The position numbers and the translations under genes are program-made. The notes under the pieces are model-generated. The model saw only the letters and a program-made list of their open reading frames with translations, was not told where the DNA came from and ran no database searches. Shown here piece after piece: positions 39,019-44,751 of a DNA stretch of 64,000 bases. Source of the DNA: a virus; the IMG/VR virus record IMGVR_UViG_3300034101_003783, positions 40,018-104,017 of that record, one strand, 5' to 3'. The number at the start of each line of letters is the position of its first letter. Position 1 is the first letter of the stretch.

Positions 39019-39465
39019 ATGAAAAAAAGAATTATAAGATTTTTCCGTAGACTTAAATTAAAATTTTATTTGTGGGGTAGAAAAAAAAATAATGAAATTA
39101 TACCAACCCATGAAGATACTCCAGTGTCTTACGAAAAAACATGTTTTCAAATATGTTTAAAAGTAATTAAACATCCCGACACTAAATTTATGATTGCTCC
39201 AATGTCTAATAAACGTTACATTGAAAATAAAAAAATGGATGTTTTTATTACTATGTACGACAAAAGAGTCGATTTAACAAATCATGTTTATCACTATAAT
39301 GTTTATTTAACTAATAGGGATTGGGAAAGGATCACTTATATTTTTGATAATGAAACGGAAAAAAGACGTTTAAATTACGAAAACAATATCAATTCTCAAA
39401 TTAAAAATTCATTACATAATGTTTTAGAAAGAATTTCTAATCTCGAAAATAATTCTATTGACTAA
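39019..39465 (+). CDS. Hypothetical protein under host-type promoter
   Basis: A 148-residue basic protein (MKKRIIRFFRRLKLKFYLWG), with Arg/Lys and aromatic residues in the first 22 positions that could touch membrane or nucleic acid, and a coiled-coil-prone C-terminus. It has the strongest housekeeping-type promoter in the area, suggesting early expression. The 3' end overlaps the convergent basic protein gene by 42 bases. Function unknown. Confidence 0.65.
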   Translation: MKKRIIRFFRRLKLKFYLWGRKKNNEIIPTHEDTPVSYEKTCFQICLKVIKHPDTKFMIAPMSNKRYIENKKMDVFITMYDKRVDLTNHVYHYNVYLTNRDWERITYIFDNETEKRRLNYENNINSQIKNSLHNVLERISNLENNSID

Positions 39466-40344
39466 ATTATCAATAGATTCTTTTTTAGGTTTGTAAGATG
39501 TCATTATAGGTTTTTGTCCTTTACCTGTTTGAGTATCTCTTTTTTCCGCTCTTCTTTTTTGTTGACATGCGGATCTTTTTTGTGAGTCTGACATTTTACC
39601 TGCAACACCAGCCGCTCTACATTTAGGATATGAGCCTTTATTTGTGTCAGGCCTACCACAAGGAGGGTGTTTACCATTTACCTTTCTACATATATCAACC
39701 CAAGGTCCTTTGGGTTGTGATGATCCTTTTGGTTTTTTCTTTTTACCAAACCAAACCGCCAAATCCTCACTTATTGTATGTGTATCATATGTTTCTACAT
39801 TATAAGACCCATCAGGATTTTTTTCATGAACACCCACAATTTTTTTTATATTATTCTTCATTGTTTTTTGTTTCTTTTTGTGATTAAATTCTGTATCAAC
39901 AAATTCAGTAAAAGGAGCCAGTTTACTGTCTTTCCATTTCATTAGGCCAAGTTCTAGTGGACCGTTATATAAACCTGCGGTAATTGTTGTATCCGCTTCT
40001 TTAATTGGTACAATTTTTTTATTTCTACCCGGTGTTGGGTTAATTAAATTACCATCATCATCACTAAACGTCGATAACGGGTTATTCCTCAAATAGTTGG
40101 TAGACTTTTTTGCTTTGGATTCTAATTTTTTAATTTGTTTTTTAGGGGTTCCCATATTATTATCGTAACTATCGTACTCTAAAAACGGACTATCATATTT
40201 TGAAACTTCAATAGTAAATGGGGTTAATTTATCTTTTTCAAACCTACGTATACCTTGTTGTAAGGGACCAATATAACTACCTCTACTTCCACTAGTTGAG
40301 GTTACTTCATTTATTATTTTATTTACTATGTTTTTAATATTCAT
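39424..40344 (-). CDS. Basic DNA-binding-like internal protein
   Basis: About 306 residues from the ATG at 40344 (MNIKNIVNKIINEVTSTSGS). A longer frame to 40461 crosses the promoter-like site and lacks other support. The start has a helix ending in IINE-V, resembling a head-targeting peptide. Other parts are GSYIGPLQQG repeated later as LYNGPLELG, a Cys/Arg-rich region (WVDICRKVNGKHPPCGRP, YPKCRAAGVAGKM, KRSACQQKRRAEKRDTQ) and DNLVNRIIFEIRNSF at the end. It is probably packaged with DNA or nucleic-acid binding. Confidence 0.65.
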   Translation of the reverse strand: MNIKNIVNKIINEVTSTSGSRGSYIGPLQQGIRRFEKDKLTPFTIEVSKYDSPFLEYDSYDNNMGTPKKQIKKLESKAKKSTNYLRNNPLSTFSDDDGNLINPTPGRNKKIVPIKEADTTITAGLYNGPLELGLMKWKDSKLAPFTEFVDTEFNHKKKQKTMKNNIKKIVGVHEKNPDGSYNVETYDTHTISEDLAVWFGKKKKPKGSSQPKGPWVDICRKVNGKHPPCGRPDTNKGSYPKCRAAGVAGKMSDSQKRSACQQKRRAEKRDTQTGKGQKPIMTSYKPKKESIDNLVNRIIFEIRNSF

Positions 40345-40350
40345 TATTAT

Positions 40351-40357
40351 ATAAATA
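40351..40357 (-). promoter_or_regulatory. Late-promoter-like TATTTAT, 6 bases before 40344
   Basis: Reads TTATATTTATATAATA on the coding strand. Spacing to the ATG is short (6 bases). It overlaps the intergenic region shared with the divergent gene at 40373. Confidence 0.4.
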
Positions 40358-40372
40358 TAACATACAAGTATT

Positions 40373-40597
40373 ATGGAACAACAAAATGAATTATTTGGAA
40401 ATCTTTTTGGTAGTATTAATATACTTTCAGAAGAACATTTAGAAGTGATCTTAACCACCATGGATAGAGAACATGCAATATACTATTTAGTTGAGTCAGT
40501 AAAGGCAGCACACAACAGAGGATCTTTCTCTATTGGTGAAAGTGAAGTAATATCAAAATCAATTAGAATTTTATCTAGACAAGATTCAGTAGAGTAA
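40373..40597 (+). CDS. Small hypothetical protein
   Basis: A 74-residue acidic helical protein (MEQQNELFGNLFGSINIL). It is divergent from 39424-40344 and convergent with the secreted-protein gene, which ends 7 bases away. No domain recognised. It could be a small regulator, but nothing shows this. Confidence 0.55.
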   Translation: MEQQNELFGNLFGSINILSEEHLEVILTTMDREHAIYYLVESVKAAHNRGSFSIGESEVISKSIRILSRQDSVE

Positions 40598-40603
40598 TAG
40601 TTA

Positions 40604-42697
40604 TTATCTAATAATTTTTTTCATAGTCCCGTCTTCATATACCTCAAATATAAATCCTTTTGTATCTGAATTAACTTCTTGCCCTATAAGGTTGATGTAT
40701 TTAACAACTTTTTTAAATGATTTTGTATTATCTAAACCAATAGGTCCGTACATCTTATATTGACCATCATAGTCAACCTGTTTTAATCTATAGTAATGTA
40801 TTACCAAATCATCAAAAGAATCTAAATAACTATAATTAATAACAACCGTACTATTACCTGAAGCCAATTTATTACCAACAACCTTCCATATCTCACCATC
40901 AATACTTCTCTCTATATCAAAGTAATCTGAGTTGTGTTCTGATGCGGTTGACCACTTAAGCGAGTTAAACGAAGGATATGGTGAACCCTCAAAGTATAAT
41001 AACTCAACAGGAAGTCCTGTTGGTGGTGTTATTGTTAGTTTATAATCCTCAGCTTCACCGTAAAGTTGTGTACCACACGATAGTGGTGCAGGATCGCTAG
41101 CTTCAACTGATACTATTCTCATTCGAGTTTCTCCTAAAGTTGCTCCGCTTGGTACAGTTATATTTAAAGGGGATAGTGATGTAATCCCATTAGTAGTGTT
41201 TAATGCACTACCCAAAGAATACTCTTCTCCTACTTCAAATACGTAATTTTGGTTCCAATCTATCCAAACTTTTGTATTTACTGTCCAATTACCATCTGTG
41301 TTTACTTTAACATTTAATTGATAAATCCCACCCTGTTCTACGTTAGTTGATTGTGTGGTAAAATCACTATATGCAGGATTACCAATACTTGTATTTGATA
41401 TTGTACCAAACGTTACGGAAGTAATACCTGTAGGGTCATTATTGGTTATGTTATATGTACAATATGATAATGTTATTTGAATAGGTGTTGATATCCCACT
41501 ATTTCCTGAACAAGTAACGGTAGATCTAAACCAAGTAGGTGATGTAATTGGTGGTGACGTTTGTGTTGCCGACGAGGTACCAAAAGTTGTCCATGTTGAA
41601 TTATCTGGACTACTCTCCCACACATAAGTTACTCCTGTACCAGTTGTAGTGTTTTGTAGTGAGAGATTTACGGTTCCGTTTGGTGGTGATGTTAATGAAG
41701 AAGAAAGTGTGTTTCCTGGGTTTGGTGTTCCTGAACAAACGGGAATAACGGGCGGTGTCCAAGTATAAGTTAATCCTGAAGTTGGTTTTACAGTATTTGA
41801 AAGTGTTACAGTTGAACTGTTTAATGTTCCTGCGGTGGTTGATGACCAATTTGTTGTGGTTGTTCTATTATTAAAATCCGTATTTAACGATCCTCTTAAC
41901 CCAATTTGAAACGTTGTTGCAGTTGTACTTGTTGGTCCTTGTATATTATATACGATATTAATTGTGTTAGTAGTTTCATTTAATCTTATCTGAAAATTAT
42001 ATAATTCACCAAACGCACCTGAAGTTGTATATCTTTGCCATCCTGTCCATTGAACCACTAATGTCCTATTAGGTGATGTACCTATTGTTTGAAATCTAAT
42101 ACCAAATCCTGACCTTGAAAATCTTAAATGTCTATTACTCCCTGTTCCTGTAGCATTTGATGAAATTGTTATAGTCGTTGCGGTTTTAGAAATAACGGTT
42201 GGGATTACAGCGGTTGGGATGCCGTTTCCTTGTACCTTATCACCAACTGATATTAAGTTAATATCACCACCTGTAATCGTAATAATAGGTGACCCGCTAG
42301 TTACTGTCATAATTAACGAACCACGACCAATTAAATCGGTTCCCATTGCGGATATTACATTATTTGACGTACCTGTTGATAGTGGTAAATAACTGTTAGT
42401 TGGTAAACCCCCTAATGTTATAAAACCATTGGTGTTTACCGCAAATTGGGTATATGTTGTGCCATTATAAATAAAGTTAAAACCAATTGATTCTAAGGCG
42501 GATGAACTTACATCGTCAAAAAAACCGGTAGTTCCGTTAAAACTACTATTTGTCCAATTTGTAAAGTTATCGTAGTTACTACCCCCAACTATTGGTGTAT
42601 AAGTTCCGGTTGATGTTCCAAACGTATAAGAACTTACTTGTGACCTAACAAAAAAACTTGTTAGTATAAGAAAAAAAATAAGTAGAGAATTTTTCAT
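40604..42697 (-). CDS. Secreted GEVED protein with T9SS C-terminal domain
   Basis: A 697-residue protein with an N-terminal signal peptide (MKNSLLIFFLILTSFFVRSQ). The first mature region, SSYTFGTSTGTYTPIVGG, is a common opening in Bacteroidetes surface proteins. A beta-rich region with CSGTPNPGN and TWFRSTVTCSGNSG follows. The GEVED domain (residues about 460-555) has WIDWNQNYVFEVGEEY and LYGEAEDYKLTI. The last 125 residues form the Type A T9SS sorting domain (DYFDIERSIDGEIWKVVG, KKVVKYINLIGQEV, FEVYEDGTMKKIIR). It is expected to cross the inner membrane by Sec and the outer membrane by T9SS. It sits downstream of the capsid terminator with its own late-promoter-like site. This is bacterial-type cargo. 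Confidence 0.85.
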   Translation of the reverse strand: MKNSLLIFFLILTSFFVRSQVSSYTFGTSTGTYTPIVGGSNYDNFTNWTNSSFNGTTGFFDDVSSSALESIGFNFIYNGTTYTQFAVNTNGFITLGGLPTNSYLPLSTGTSNNVISAMGTDLIGRGSLIMTVTSGSPIITITGGDINLISVGDKVQGNGIPTAVIPTVISKTATTITISSNATGTGSNRHLRFSRSGFGIRFQTIGTSPNRTLVVQWTGWQRYTTSGAFGELYNFQIRLNETTNTINIVYNIQGPTSTTATTFQIGLRGSLNTDFNNRTTTTNWSSTTAGTLNSSTVTLSNTVKPTSGLTYTWTPPVIPVCSGTPNPGNTLSSSLTSPPNGTVNLSLQNTTTGTGVTYVWESSPDNSTWTTFGTSSATQTSPPITSPTWFRSTVTCSGNSGISTPIQITLSYCTYNITNNDPTGITSVTFGTISNTSIGNPAYSDFTTQSTNVEQGGIYQLNVKVNTDGNWTVNTKVWIDWNQNYVFEVGEEYSLGSALNTTNGITSLSPLNITVPSGATLGETRMRIVSVEASDPAPLSCGTQLYGEAEDYKLTITPPTGLPVELLYFEGSPYPSFNSLKWSTASEHNSDYFDIERSIDGEIWKVVGNKLASGNSTVVINYSYLDSFDDLVIHYYRLKQVDYDGQYKMYGPIGLDNTKSFKKVVKYINLIGQEVNSDTKGFIFEVYEDGTMKKIIR

Positions 42698-42790: not shown

Positions 42791-42823
42791 AACAAAAAAA
42801 GGAGATAATTTCTTATCTCCTTT
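42791..42823 (-). terminator. Strong intrinsic terminator after capsid gene
   Basis: Perfect 11-bp inverted repeat AAAGGAGATAA/TTATCTCCTTT with a 4-base loop, followed on the minus strand by seven T. It lies 21 bases past the capsid stop and insulates the secreted-protein gene. Confidence 0.9.
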
Positions 42824-42843: not shown

Positions 42844-44751
42844 TTATCTCAATTCTCTTAAGTCGAATGTTCTAACTCCATCAACTGTGATTCTTGCGTA
42901 GAATCTGTTATTAACCATTTTCTTAGCGTATCTTGTCATAATACCTTTGATTGGTGTGAAGTTGAATGGGTTGTACATTGTAGGTGTTAATTGTAGAGGT
43001 ACGTACGGTGCGTAGATGTAACCTGTGTCTAACAATGATGTTCCTTTGTGTCCGATCAAAATTTGATTTGGTGGGAAGTAAGGATCACGGTAAACTTGGT
43101 AACGTCCTGACAAAGTACCAACTCTTTCAATACCCATGTTATACTGATCTTGTTCAGGAGATGCGTTAGATACGTGGAAGTACTCTAAGTCATCAAAGAT
43201 AGCAGATACTTCAGAAGAAACAACGATCCAGTTAGCTCCACCTCTTAAAGTTGATTTGTGAATTTGAGCAGACAATTGGTTAATTGCTGTAATCAAAGTC
43301 TGATTCCAATCTTTTTGAGTGTAAGAAGTTGTTAACTGTAGTCTTCTCCATCCGTTATAATCCCATCTTAGGTTCCAAGCCGCTCCTTTTCTAAGGTCTC
43401 TCAAGATTTCTCTATCGATTTCAGCCGCCACTTGTTCAGACAATAAAGCCGTTAATTCAGCTTCAGCGTCGATATTGTGGAATGCCGCAACGTCTTGTGC
43501 TAATTCAGGTGACCATTGTGCTCTTAGTTTTCTTTCTGTAACAGATACAGTAACTGACTCAAGGTCAAAAGAAACTTCACCAATTTGATCTTCGAATTCT
43601 AAGTTTTTATATCTTCTATATACCGCTTGGAATGGTGCAGTTGCCAAAGATTGACTACTATTATCACCAATGTCTTCTATTGTAGTACCTGTATAACCAT
43701 CTAAAGTAGTTGCTCCACAATCAGCACATGCTGGACAAGAAAGATCTACTTCTAAGAAGATACAACCATCTTGTGAACAAATATCATTGTAAGAACCTCC
43801 ATTACCTGTTGAAGACCAAATAGTTGGTGTTGTAGTTGAGGTAGGTTGTACAATTCCTTTTCCATAAATTTGAGTAACAACTCTAAACAATAATGGAGCG
43901 GATAAAGTAGATAGAGGAGTAATAGGATCCAAATTAGGACATTGATTTCCTGCTGATAATTGATCTAAGTTAGCAACTATTTTAAGATCTGAAAGGAAAG
44001 TTTCAGTATCAATTTCATTACCATCAGGACCAATTAATTTTCCAACACCTGCATTATTAAATCCACAAAGTTTGATAATCATTTTTCTTGTATTTTGTCC
44101 ATTAAACTCATCATCTGCCGGTACTAAATCAGAACCAGACCATACCATAGCAATGGCAGGTTGAGTAACTGCAGTCCATTGTCCTTTTGAATAATCGAAT
44201 AACCCTGGAGGATCTAAAGACGCCTCAGAACCTTCGTAAAATAAATCATAAAGATTTTTTGTGTAAGGTGCGTTACCATTACCATTAGGGAATGTAACAG
44301 TACCTGGATAACCTTGACCAACATTATTTGTATCATCAGCAAGTGCTTGAGGAGAACCAATTGGTGAGTAATGTACTCCACCGTCTGGTGCTGAAGGTGT
44401 TGCGTCAGGATTATATCCTTGGATACGAGGTACGAAGTAGAACAATTTACCAATAGGTAAGTTCATTGCTTGTACAGAAACGATATCGTTCGCTAACAAT
44501 TTAGAGAAAACTCTTCTTACGATAGGGAAAACAACTGTTTCGAATGCTCCGTTAGAAGTTTCAGAAGTTGCTTCGTTAATTAAGAAAGAAGCTTGGTTTT
44601 CATATAACTGTGCTACGTTTTCTTTTAGGTGGCCTCTAAGACCTTCAAGGAACCCTAATCTGTCCCATTTGTTAATTGTATCTTCTTTGATAACTTTAAG
44701 GTGCTTAAGACCAATGTTACCAACAAGACCTGATTCTAATAATGCTCCCAT
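42844..44751 (-). CDS. Major capsid protein (T4 gp23-like)
   Basis: A 635-residue protein with T4-type capsid features: FETVVFPIVRRVFSKLLAND in the N-arm, VQAMNLPIGKLFYFVPR, LEFDQIGEVSFDLESVTVS, LRAQWSPELAQDVAAFH and, near the C-terminus, TGYIYAPYVPLQLTPTMYNP followed by GIMTRYAKKMVNNRFYARI. A likely prohead-protease site is LINE-A after residue 60, matching the gp21 rule (I/L)xE|A. A middle insertion (about residues 125-370) with a CPACADCG cysteine cluster is larger than in T4. It is followed by a strong terminator and preceded by a promoter motif 44 bases upstream. Confidence 0.95.
   Translation of the reverse strand: MGALLESGLVGNIGLKHLKVIKEDTINKWDRLGFLEGLRGHLKENVAQLYENQASFLINEATSETSNGAFETVVFPIVRRVFSKLLANDIVSVQAMNLPIGKLFYFVPRIQGYNPDATPSAPDGGVHYSPIGSPQALADDTNNVGQGYPGTVTFPNGNGNAPYTKNLYDLFYEGSEASLDPPGLFDYSKGQWTAVTQPAIAMVWSGSDLVPADDEFNGQNTRKMIIKLCGFNNAGVGKLIGPDGNEIDTETFLSDLKIVANLDQLSAGNQCPNLDPITPLSTLSAPLLFRVVTQIYGKGIVQPTSTTTPTIWSSTGNGGSYNDICSQDGCIFLEVDLSCPACADCGATTLDGYTGTTIEDIGDNSSQSLATAPFQAVYRRYKNLEFEDQIGEVSFDLESVTVSVTERKLRAQWSPELAQDVAAFHNIDAEAELTALLSEQVAAEIDREILRDLRKGAAWNLRWDYNGWRRLQLTTSYTQKDWNQTLITAINQLSAQIHKSTLRGGANWIVVSSEVSAIFDDLEYFHVSNASPEQDQYNMGIERVGTLSGRYQVYRDPYFPPNQILIGHKGTSLLDTGYIYAPYVPLQLTPTMYNPFNFTPIKGIMTRYAKKMVNNRFYARITVDGVRTFDLRELR

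Follow-up and report, generated by a model that had tools for sequence, protein, structure and literature searches.

The window analysed here (the whole 64,000-nucleotide stretch, bases 40018–104017 of a 104-kb virus record) carries a T4-like head cluster, in which terminase, Gp20 portal, S77 protease, and Gp23 all match curated families. As shown in Table 1, the gene behind that of the major capsid protein encodes a GEVED cargo protein that is predicted to be exported. An earlier sequence-only reading of the locus had placed this gene right after the capsid terminator, and this proved correct, with Gp23 upstream and a hairpin followed by TTTT between the two genes. On the other side of the cargo gene, the open reading frame that marks the end of the slot is probably over-long; its likely true start is at 40344, with a TATATTTATATAATA stretch directly upstream, and this start matches relatives that begin with MNIKDIVNKI.

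Table 1. Features at the cargo locus (positions of the window; strand; basis of the assignment).
Feature	Coordinates	Strand	Basis
Major capsid protein Gp23, upstream neighbour	42844..44751	-	PF07068 E 2.6e-73
Terminator-like 11-bp hairpin behind the Gp23 gene	42798..42823	-	AAAGGAGATAA-GAAA-TTATCTCCTTT, then TTTT on the minus strand
Late-promoter-like motif TATTTATT, 23 nt upstream of the cargo start codon	42713..42720	-	Motif scan
GEVED cargo gene, 697 aa, predicted exported protein	40604..42697	-	ORF, ATG start; relatives in 39 viral loci
Signal peptide, residues 1-20, MKNSLLIFFLILTSFFVRSQ	42638..42697	-	Sequence; hydropathy rule
Variable payload, N-terminal part, residues 21-316	41750..42637	-	Sequence comparison; low-confidence model
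GEVED domain, residues 475-554	41036..41275	-	PF20009 E 7.9e-19
Constant LPVEL module, about residues 562-657	40727..41014	-	Alignments; AlphaFold2: all-beta, weakly fn3-like
Short C-terminal export tail (putative), residues 658-697, end GFIFEVYEDGTMKKIIR	40607..40726	-	Tail model in bacterial genomes
Segment whose place in L031 and L227 is taken by unrelated or unalignable sequence (L033: slightly different left edge); exchange junctions	41011..42668	-	blastn breakpoints
Far-side gene, slot end marker	39424..40461	-	phrog_23735; relatives downstream in many loci

The N-terminus of the cargo protein was judged by eye to be a clear signal peptide, and the protein ends in ...KYINLIGQEVNSDTKGFIFEVYEDGTMKKIIR. 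Both the signal peptide and the GEVED domain of the sequence-only reading held up: PF20009 scores 68.7 bits in the window protein, above the Pfam gathering cut-off of 24.4, and 71 of the 74 viral proteins that share the C-terminal module and have a complete N-terminus are signal-peptide-like, compared with 55 of 1060 other viral ORFs, as counted by a crude hydropathy rule rather than SignalP. Within the payload, residues 200–357 have bacterial matches at up to 49% identity. AlphaFold2 modelled the full-length protein poorly (overall pLDDT 59); the 146-aa C-terminal unit folds well (pLDDT 89), with only about three short strands in the tail part of the model. Foldseek returned no match to this unit at E ≤ 0.001, only weak fn3-like ones, and a PDB sequence search gave matches at chance level only. 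Across the window and bases 1–40000 of the record, the C-terminal unit was seen in this one gene.

The promoter-like motif of the cargo gene belongs to a wider pattern. TATTTAT[AT] lies at most 45 nt upstream of 14 of the 64 genes of the window, against 2.3 ± 1.4 in shuffles (largest 8 in 500 shuffles); the offsets are mostly −19 to −26, with −23 at the cargo gene, and the bearers include terL, the S77 prohead protease, and other head-cluster genes. Similarly, the motif is found in 47 of 62 distinct cargo-gene upstream regions, where 5.7 ± 2.3 would be expected. TATTTATA is the reverse complement of the T4 late element TATAAATA; T4's own element occurs 29 times in the whole window against 20.5 expected, which is not convincing until the count is limited to gene starts and orientation. 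A sigma-70 promoter scan found fewer sites than in shuffles. The TATTTAT[AT] sites are read as probable late promoters, since the genes that bear them keep the company of head genes. The earlier reading had given the cargo gene a late-promoter-like motif of its own; the motif stands, common to head genes, while its lateness we infer.

Relatives of the window gene occur in 39 distinct viral loci, several of them being the same or nearly the same sequence on different contigs, where the capsid gene precedes them at an equal distance. Such relatives are what the earlier reading had proposed to look for at the same locus. When the viral collection was searched with the C-terminal unit, 287 stretches matched, 80 loci of which were retained, and the unit ends 0–2 residues before the stop in all 78 distinct viral proteins. 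Gp23 lies upstream on the same strand within 8 kb in 94 of 119 rows with the C-terminal unit (72 within 1 kb), a proportion that overstates the adjacency because the set has duplicates and loci fetched through the capsid gene. For a census of the slot, 80 loci were ranked by capsid similarity, and 54 of them extend more than 2.5 kb behind the capsid gene; with gene classes assigned by simple patterns, 16 of the 54 have cargo with the C-terminal unit, 12 another signal-peptide-like gene, and 22 an endonuclease-like gene, and several are empty. The accessory slot recurs among these phages, with the window gene as one of its alleles and cargo in about a third of close relatives, and it is virtually certain that this is a genuine phage cargo slot. 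Flavobacterium phage immuto, a cultured flavobacterial phage related through its capsid protein, has no such cargo behind the capsid gene.

Other genes recur at this site. Two representative endonuclease-like genes match the homing endonuclease and endonuclease VII families, and in many relatives endonuclease VII-like or homing-endonuclease-like genes (for instance, L005:5190-5870 and L021:2957-4666) lie between the capsid and cargo genes. Slot subtilases were found in 18 viral loci; in 15 of these the gap behind the capsid gene is no more than about 250 nt, and in two more it is 1.1 kb. Examples of these signal-peptide S8 subtilases are L043:4361-5815, L095:10015-12066, L086:8478-10733, and L321-L337, and several precede a cargo gene with the short tail. 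The L095 subtilase has SprB repeats and a curated Por_Secre_tail (PF18962 E 3.1e-11), and this independently supports the slot as a predicted home of cargo for the type IX secretion system (T9SS). In addition, a 900-aa TonB-dependent-receptor-like protein lies roughly 4 kb behind Gp23 (L107:12900-15602 and L338-L344; Plug 1e-10, CarbopepD_reg_2 3e-12, phrog_5687; 7 viral loci at 84–100% identity), an outer-membrane receptor type inside a phage genome.

The cargo is an exported-type phage gene that varies between close relatives. The middles of 74 complete cargo proteins fall into 16 groups by BLAST with coverage, and 65 are linked by some partial similarity, so the domains are shuffled rather than all unrelated; the Pfam domains across alleles are GEVED, fn3, a T9SS-associated galactose-binding domain, CUB, and Ig_7. 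In L031, for instance, the last 136 residues are identical to those of the window protein, the middle is without detectable similarity, and the DNA flanks are about 87–88% identical to the window, the blastn match breaking at 42668 and 41011. L227 breaks at the same two positions, and L033 at 42701 and 41011. As these alignments show, recombination between the constant ends swaps the middle.

A tree was built from the C-terminal unit (117 rows with 56 phage proteins, few columns, and many weak forks); in it, the phage sequences cluster, with 2 label changes compared with 39 in shuffles, and bacterial short-tail proteins are nearest to them. Since the phage modules fall almost entirely together, the module has probably been long resident in phages while the payload was exchanged, and host-gene capture would be at best an old event. 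The sequence-only reading had described an unusual host gene captured into a structural operon; a one-off capture of this kind disagrees with the clustering of the phage modules, and the gene lies in an accessory slot, not at a fixed site of a structural operon. The phylogeny against host proteins that it had suggested, run here for the C-terminal unit, did find related bacterial short tails, but with the phage copies nearly all in a cluster of their own. Flavobacteriales short-tail proteins, such as those of Fluviicola sp. XM-24bin1 (L123, L138), share the 146-aa C-terminal unit at 40–46% identity to the phage copy; they are cellular genes with other payloads. A search of 60 bacterial genomes from a single family turned up no full-length counterpart, and separate domains match separate Fluviicola-type family proteins at roughly 35–49% identity. 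No tRNA genes that might serve as a host clue were found in the first 40 kb of the record. The lineage is T4-like and probably infects aquatic Bacteroidota, probably Flavobacteriales; a host within Flavobacteriales, perhaps Crocinitomicaceae, is at most a reasonable guess.

The sequence-only reading had also seen a T9SS-like sorting domain at the C-terminus. None of TIGR04183, PF18962, PF13585, and NF033708 recognises the C-terminus of the window protein, and the type B model TIGR04131 matches neither this protein nor the phage C-termini, in searches of the window protein at E ≤ 1 and of 15 phage C-termini at E ≤ 10. The phage tail has about 40 aa and no PNP (motif A), whereas a type A domain has 70–80 aa and an Ig-like fold; when the short tail was compared with standard CTDs by profile, the result was insignificant (probability 1.8%). 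As to motifs D/E (a G-x-Y strand and a lysine-rich end), a loose pattern of our own fits 76 of the 78 phage tails, with an insignificant profile score. GFP is reported to be secreted with no more of the HBP35 CTD, a type A domain, than its final 22 residues, which hold motifs D and E (PMC10202324). The cargo proteins do combine a signal peptide (71 of 74) with the C-terminal place of a sorting unit (78 of 78). As the window gene fails the curated-domain test, it should not be filed under TIGR04183, and what stands of the claimed domain is its homology to bacterial proteins.

Species genomes scanned with the C-terminal alignment yielded 80 loci. Almost all of them have Bacteroidota in their titles; one has a Competibacteraceae title, probably through a binning error. 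In these bacterial proteins, the LPVEL module lies near the C-terminus, and a PNP motif is present in the last 100 residues of 71 of 104; all 20 tails sampled match TIGR04183, and several LPVEL proteins end in the phage-type short tail instead of the PNP tail. With a model of the 40-residue tail, matches came from 35 of the 60 genomes searched in one family and from 136 of 299 in one order (Flavobacteriales), and in the loci that were read, the bacterial short-tail ORFs are of very different length with the tail at or within a few residues of the C-terminus. SprA was detected in 134 of the 136 tail-bearing genomes (the other two, G535 and G708, may be incomplete) and in 292 of the 299 genomes of the order, a weak test of co-occurrence because 98% of the order has SprA. 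A draw of 396 genomes across the phylum gave only 1 match to the tail model; this is hard to reconcile with the 136 of 299 in the order, and sampling or a first-look effect may be the cause. Because the tail is common in T9SS-bearing Flavobacteriales and the module mostly lies directly ahead of a TIGR04183 domain in bacteria, export of the cargo by the T9SS route is likely. Transport at least beyond the inner membrane is predicted with high confidence. The T9SS export claimed by the earlier reading stands to the extent that an exported-type gene with a host-type tail lies in the head cluster; the tail is a short Flavobacteriales type and not type A, B, or C, so the route is read from this context and not from a family match or a standard domain.

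Several other explanations of the locus have to be weighed. The domains look host-like, as they would if host DNA had been fused to a phage contig during assembly; such a chimera, which the earlier reading had named as grounds for discarding its claim, is ruled out by the 39 viral loci and by equal junctions repeated in many independent contigs, and the phage-specific cluster of the C-terminal modules leaves it practically no probability. A place behind Gp23, a promoter-like motif common to structural genes, and beta-rich Ig/fn3-like domains would all suit a virion component, that is, an Ig-like decoration or fibre of the Hoc type on the capsid or tail, encoded beside the capsid gene for that reason. 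T4 Hoc-like decoration protein is cytoplasmic and has no export signals, whereas signal peptides are predicted in nearly all relatives of the window protein, its C-terminal module is common to many kinds of bacterial proteins and so offers no capsid-binding part, the gene is accessory with empty slots in some relatives, and the sister slot genes are predicted secreted subtilases; a virion component is very improbable.

The cargo might also be exported without T9SS, stopping in the periplasm or being released by lysis, with a tail of other function such as outer-membrane anchoring by a different pathway. The failure of the curated CTD models and the insignificant profile likeness to standard CTDs are what this would predict, but the tail and module hold the position of a T9SS CTD in bacterial paralogues, the tail is confined to C-termini, and a standard CTD is present in the same phage slot (L095), which makes such a route unlikely. 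A T9SS cargo that brings a nutritional or adhesive gain (particle attachment, aggregation, or polymer breakdown) instead of superinfection exclusion differs from the best explanation in purpose only, and the confidences of the two overlap. Hosts themselves secrete GEVED, CUB, fn3, and galactose-binding-like domains as well as subtilases, and the cargo of Cryophage includes an endoglucanase and a glycoside hydrolase (PMC7468147); against this, a late-type motif and a presumably lytic T4-like lineage leave scant time for nutritional gain, and the fast exchange of the middle would resemble an arms race more than a housekeeping enzyme. A gain of this kind is a minority possibility to be taken seriously.

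The reading of the cargo as a T9SS-exported surface or secreted protein, its receptor role excepted, is on the whole probable. Expression in the infected cell would start from the gene's own promoter-like motif, probably at a late stage; the signal peptide would direct the protein through Sec across the inner membrane, and the short tail would then likely engage the host type IX secretion system and carry it across the outer membrane to the surface or the medium. There, the adhesin-like middle, which is GEVED here, fn3, galactose-binding-like, CUB, or Ig elsewhere, and is accompanied by subtilases in sister genes, may alter the surface or surroundings of the infected cell. The homing endonucleases in the slot may drive the payload traffic. 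As to purpose, the best guess is a weak one: the protein might conceal, occupy, or destroy the receptors of phages, leaving rival or sister phages unable to adsorb; subtilases would fit receptor destruction and adhesin-like alleles masking. It has been reported that gld and spr mutants of F. columnare resist phage V156 (PMC9233685), so in at least one flavobacterium the entry of a phage is influenced by surface material that depends on T9SS; this need of a flavobacterial phage for T9SS/gliding genes is behind the guess that the cargo protects the infected cell or the released progeny from adsorption. A role at receptors or in superinfection is nevertheless rather doubtful. The fullest version, a dedicated surface-display slot in which a constant signal peptide and short tail form a cassette and swapped adhesins or enzymes, exported via T9SS, exclude rival phages, the tail being an undescribed T9SS sorting signal common to Flavobacteriales, can be put forward only tentatively.

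Among open-licence papers, the only prior phage T9SS cargo found was that of Cryophage, a Bacteroidetes phage with a T9SS-type cargo that is highly variable among otherwise near-identical phages, for which superinfection exclusion or inter-strain competition was proposed (Bellas et al. 2020; PMC7468147). A phage-encoded variable T9SS-type cargo is common to both systems. In Cryophage, a 76-kb phage to which integrated elements are related, the type A sorting domains belong to an endoglucanase, a GH39, and a PA14 protein; in the present case, by contrast, the phages are T4-like, the slot behind Gp23 is fixed, the payloads are adhesin-like with subtilases beside them, the short tail is unmodelled, and the middle is exchanged between constant ends. 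A recognised sorting domain of the Cryophage type is absent from the window gene and occurs in the L095 slot sister genes (PF18962). Compared with T9SS type A domains (TIGR04183, PF18962), the phage tail shares the extreme C-terminus, behind the LPVEL module in bacterial proteins, and its glycine-led strand and basic end look similar to motifs D/E, whereas length, PNP, HMM match, and profile–profile score set it apart. Signal-peptide proteins with the LPVEL module were also seen in records of 462–642 kb, LR745206, LR756502, LR756504, and LR756500 (L346-L349); in L346, the displayed ORF stops just ahead of the LPVEL match. The huge-phage proteins of LR756500, LR756502, and LR756504 resemble the window protein in signal peptide, LPVEL module, and C-terminal tail, but belong to much larger genomes, and L348 and L349 have a longer, standard-looking tail.

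The use of T9SS by a phage is not new; new are the T4-like lineage, the capsid-adjacent slot, the design of constant ends with a variable middle, and the short tail. This putative export tail is missed by current annotation models in many bacterial and viral proteins. T4-like phages are usually pictured as building virions and lysing the cell. Many T4-like relatives of the present phage carry changeable proteins with a predicted address at the host exterior, which suggests that infected cells wear or release proteins chosen by the virus. If true, the slot would offer a tractable way to ask whether phages remodel the surfaces of infected Bacteroidota and how phages compete there.
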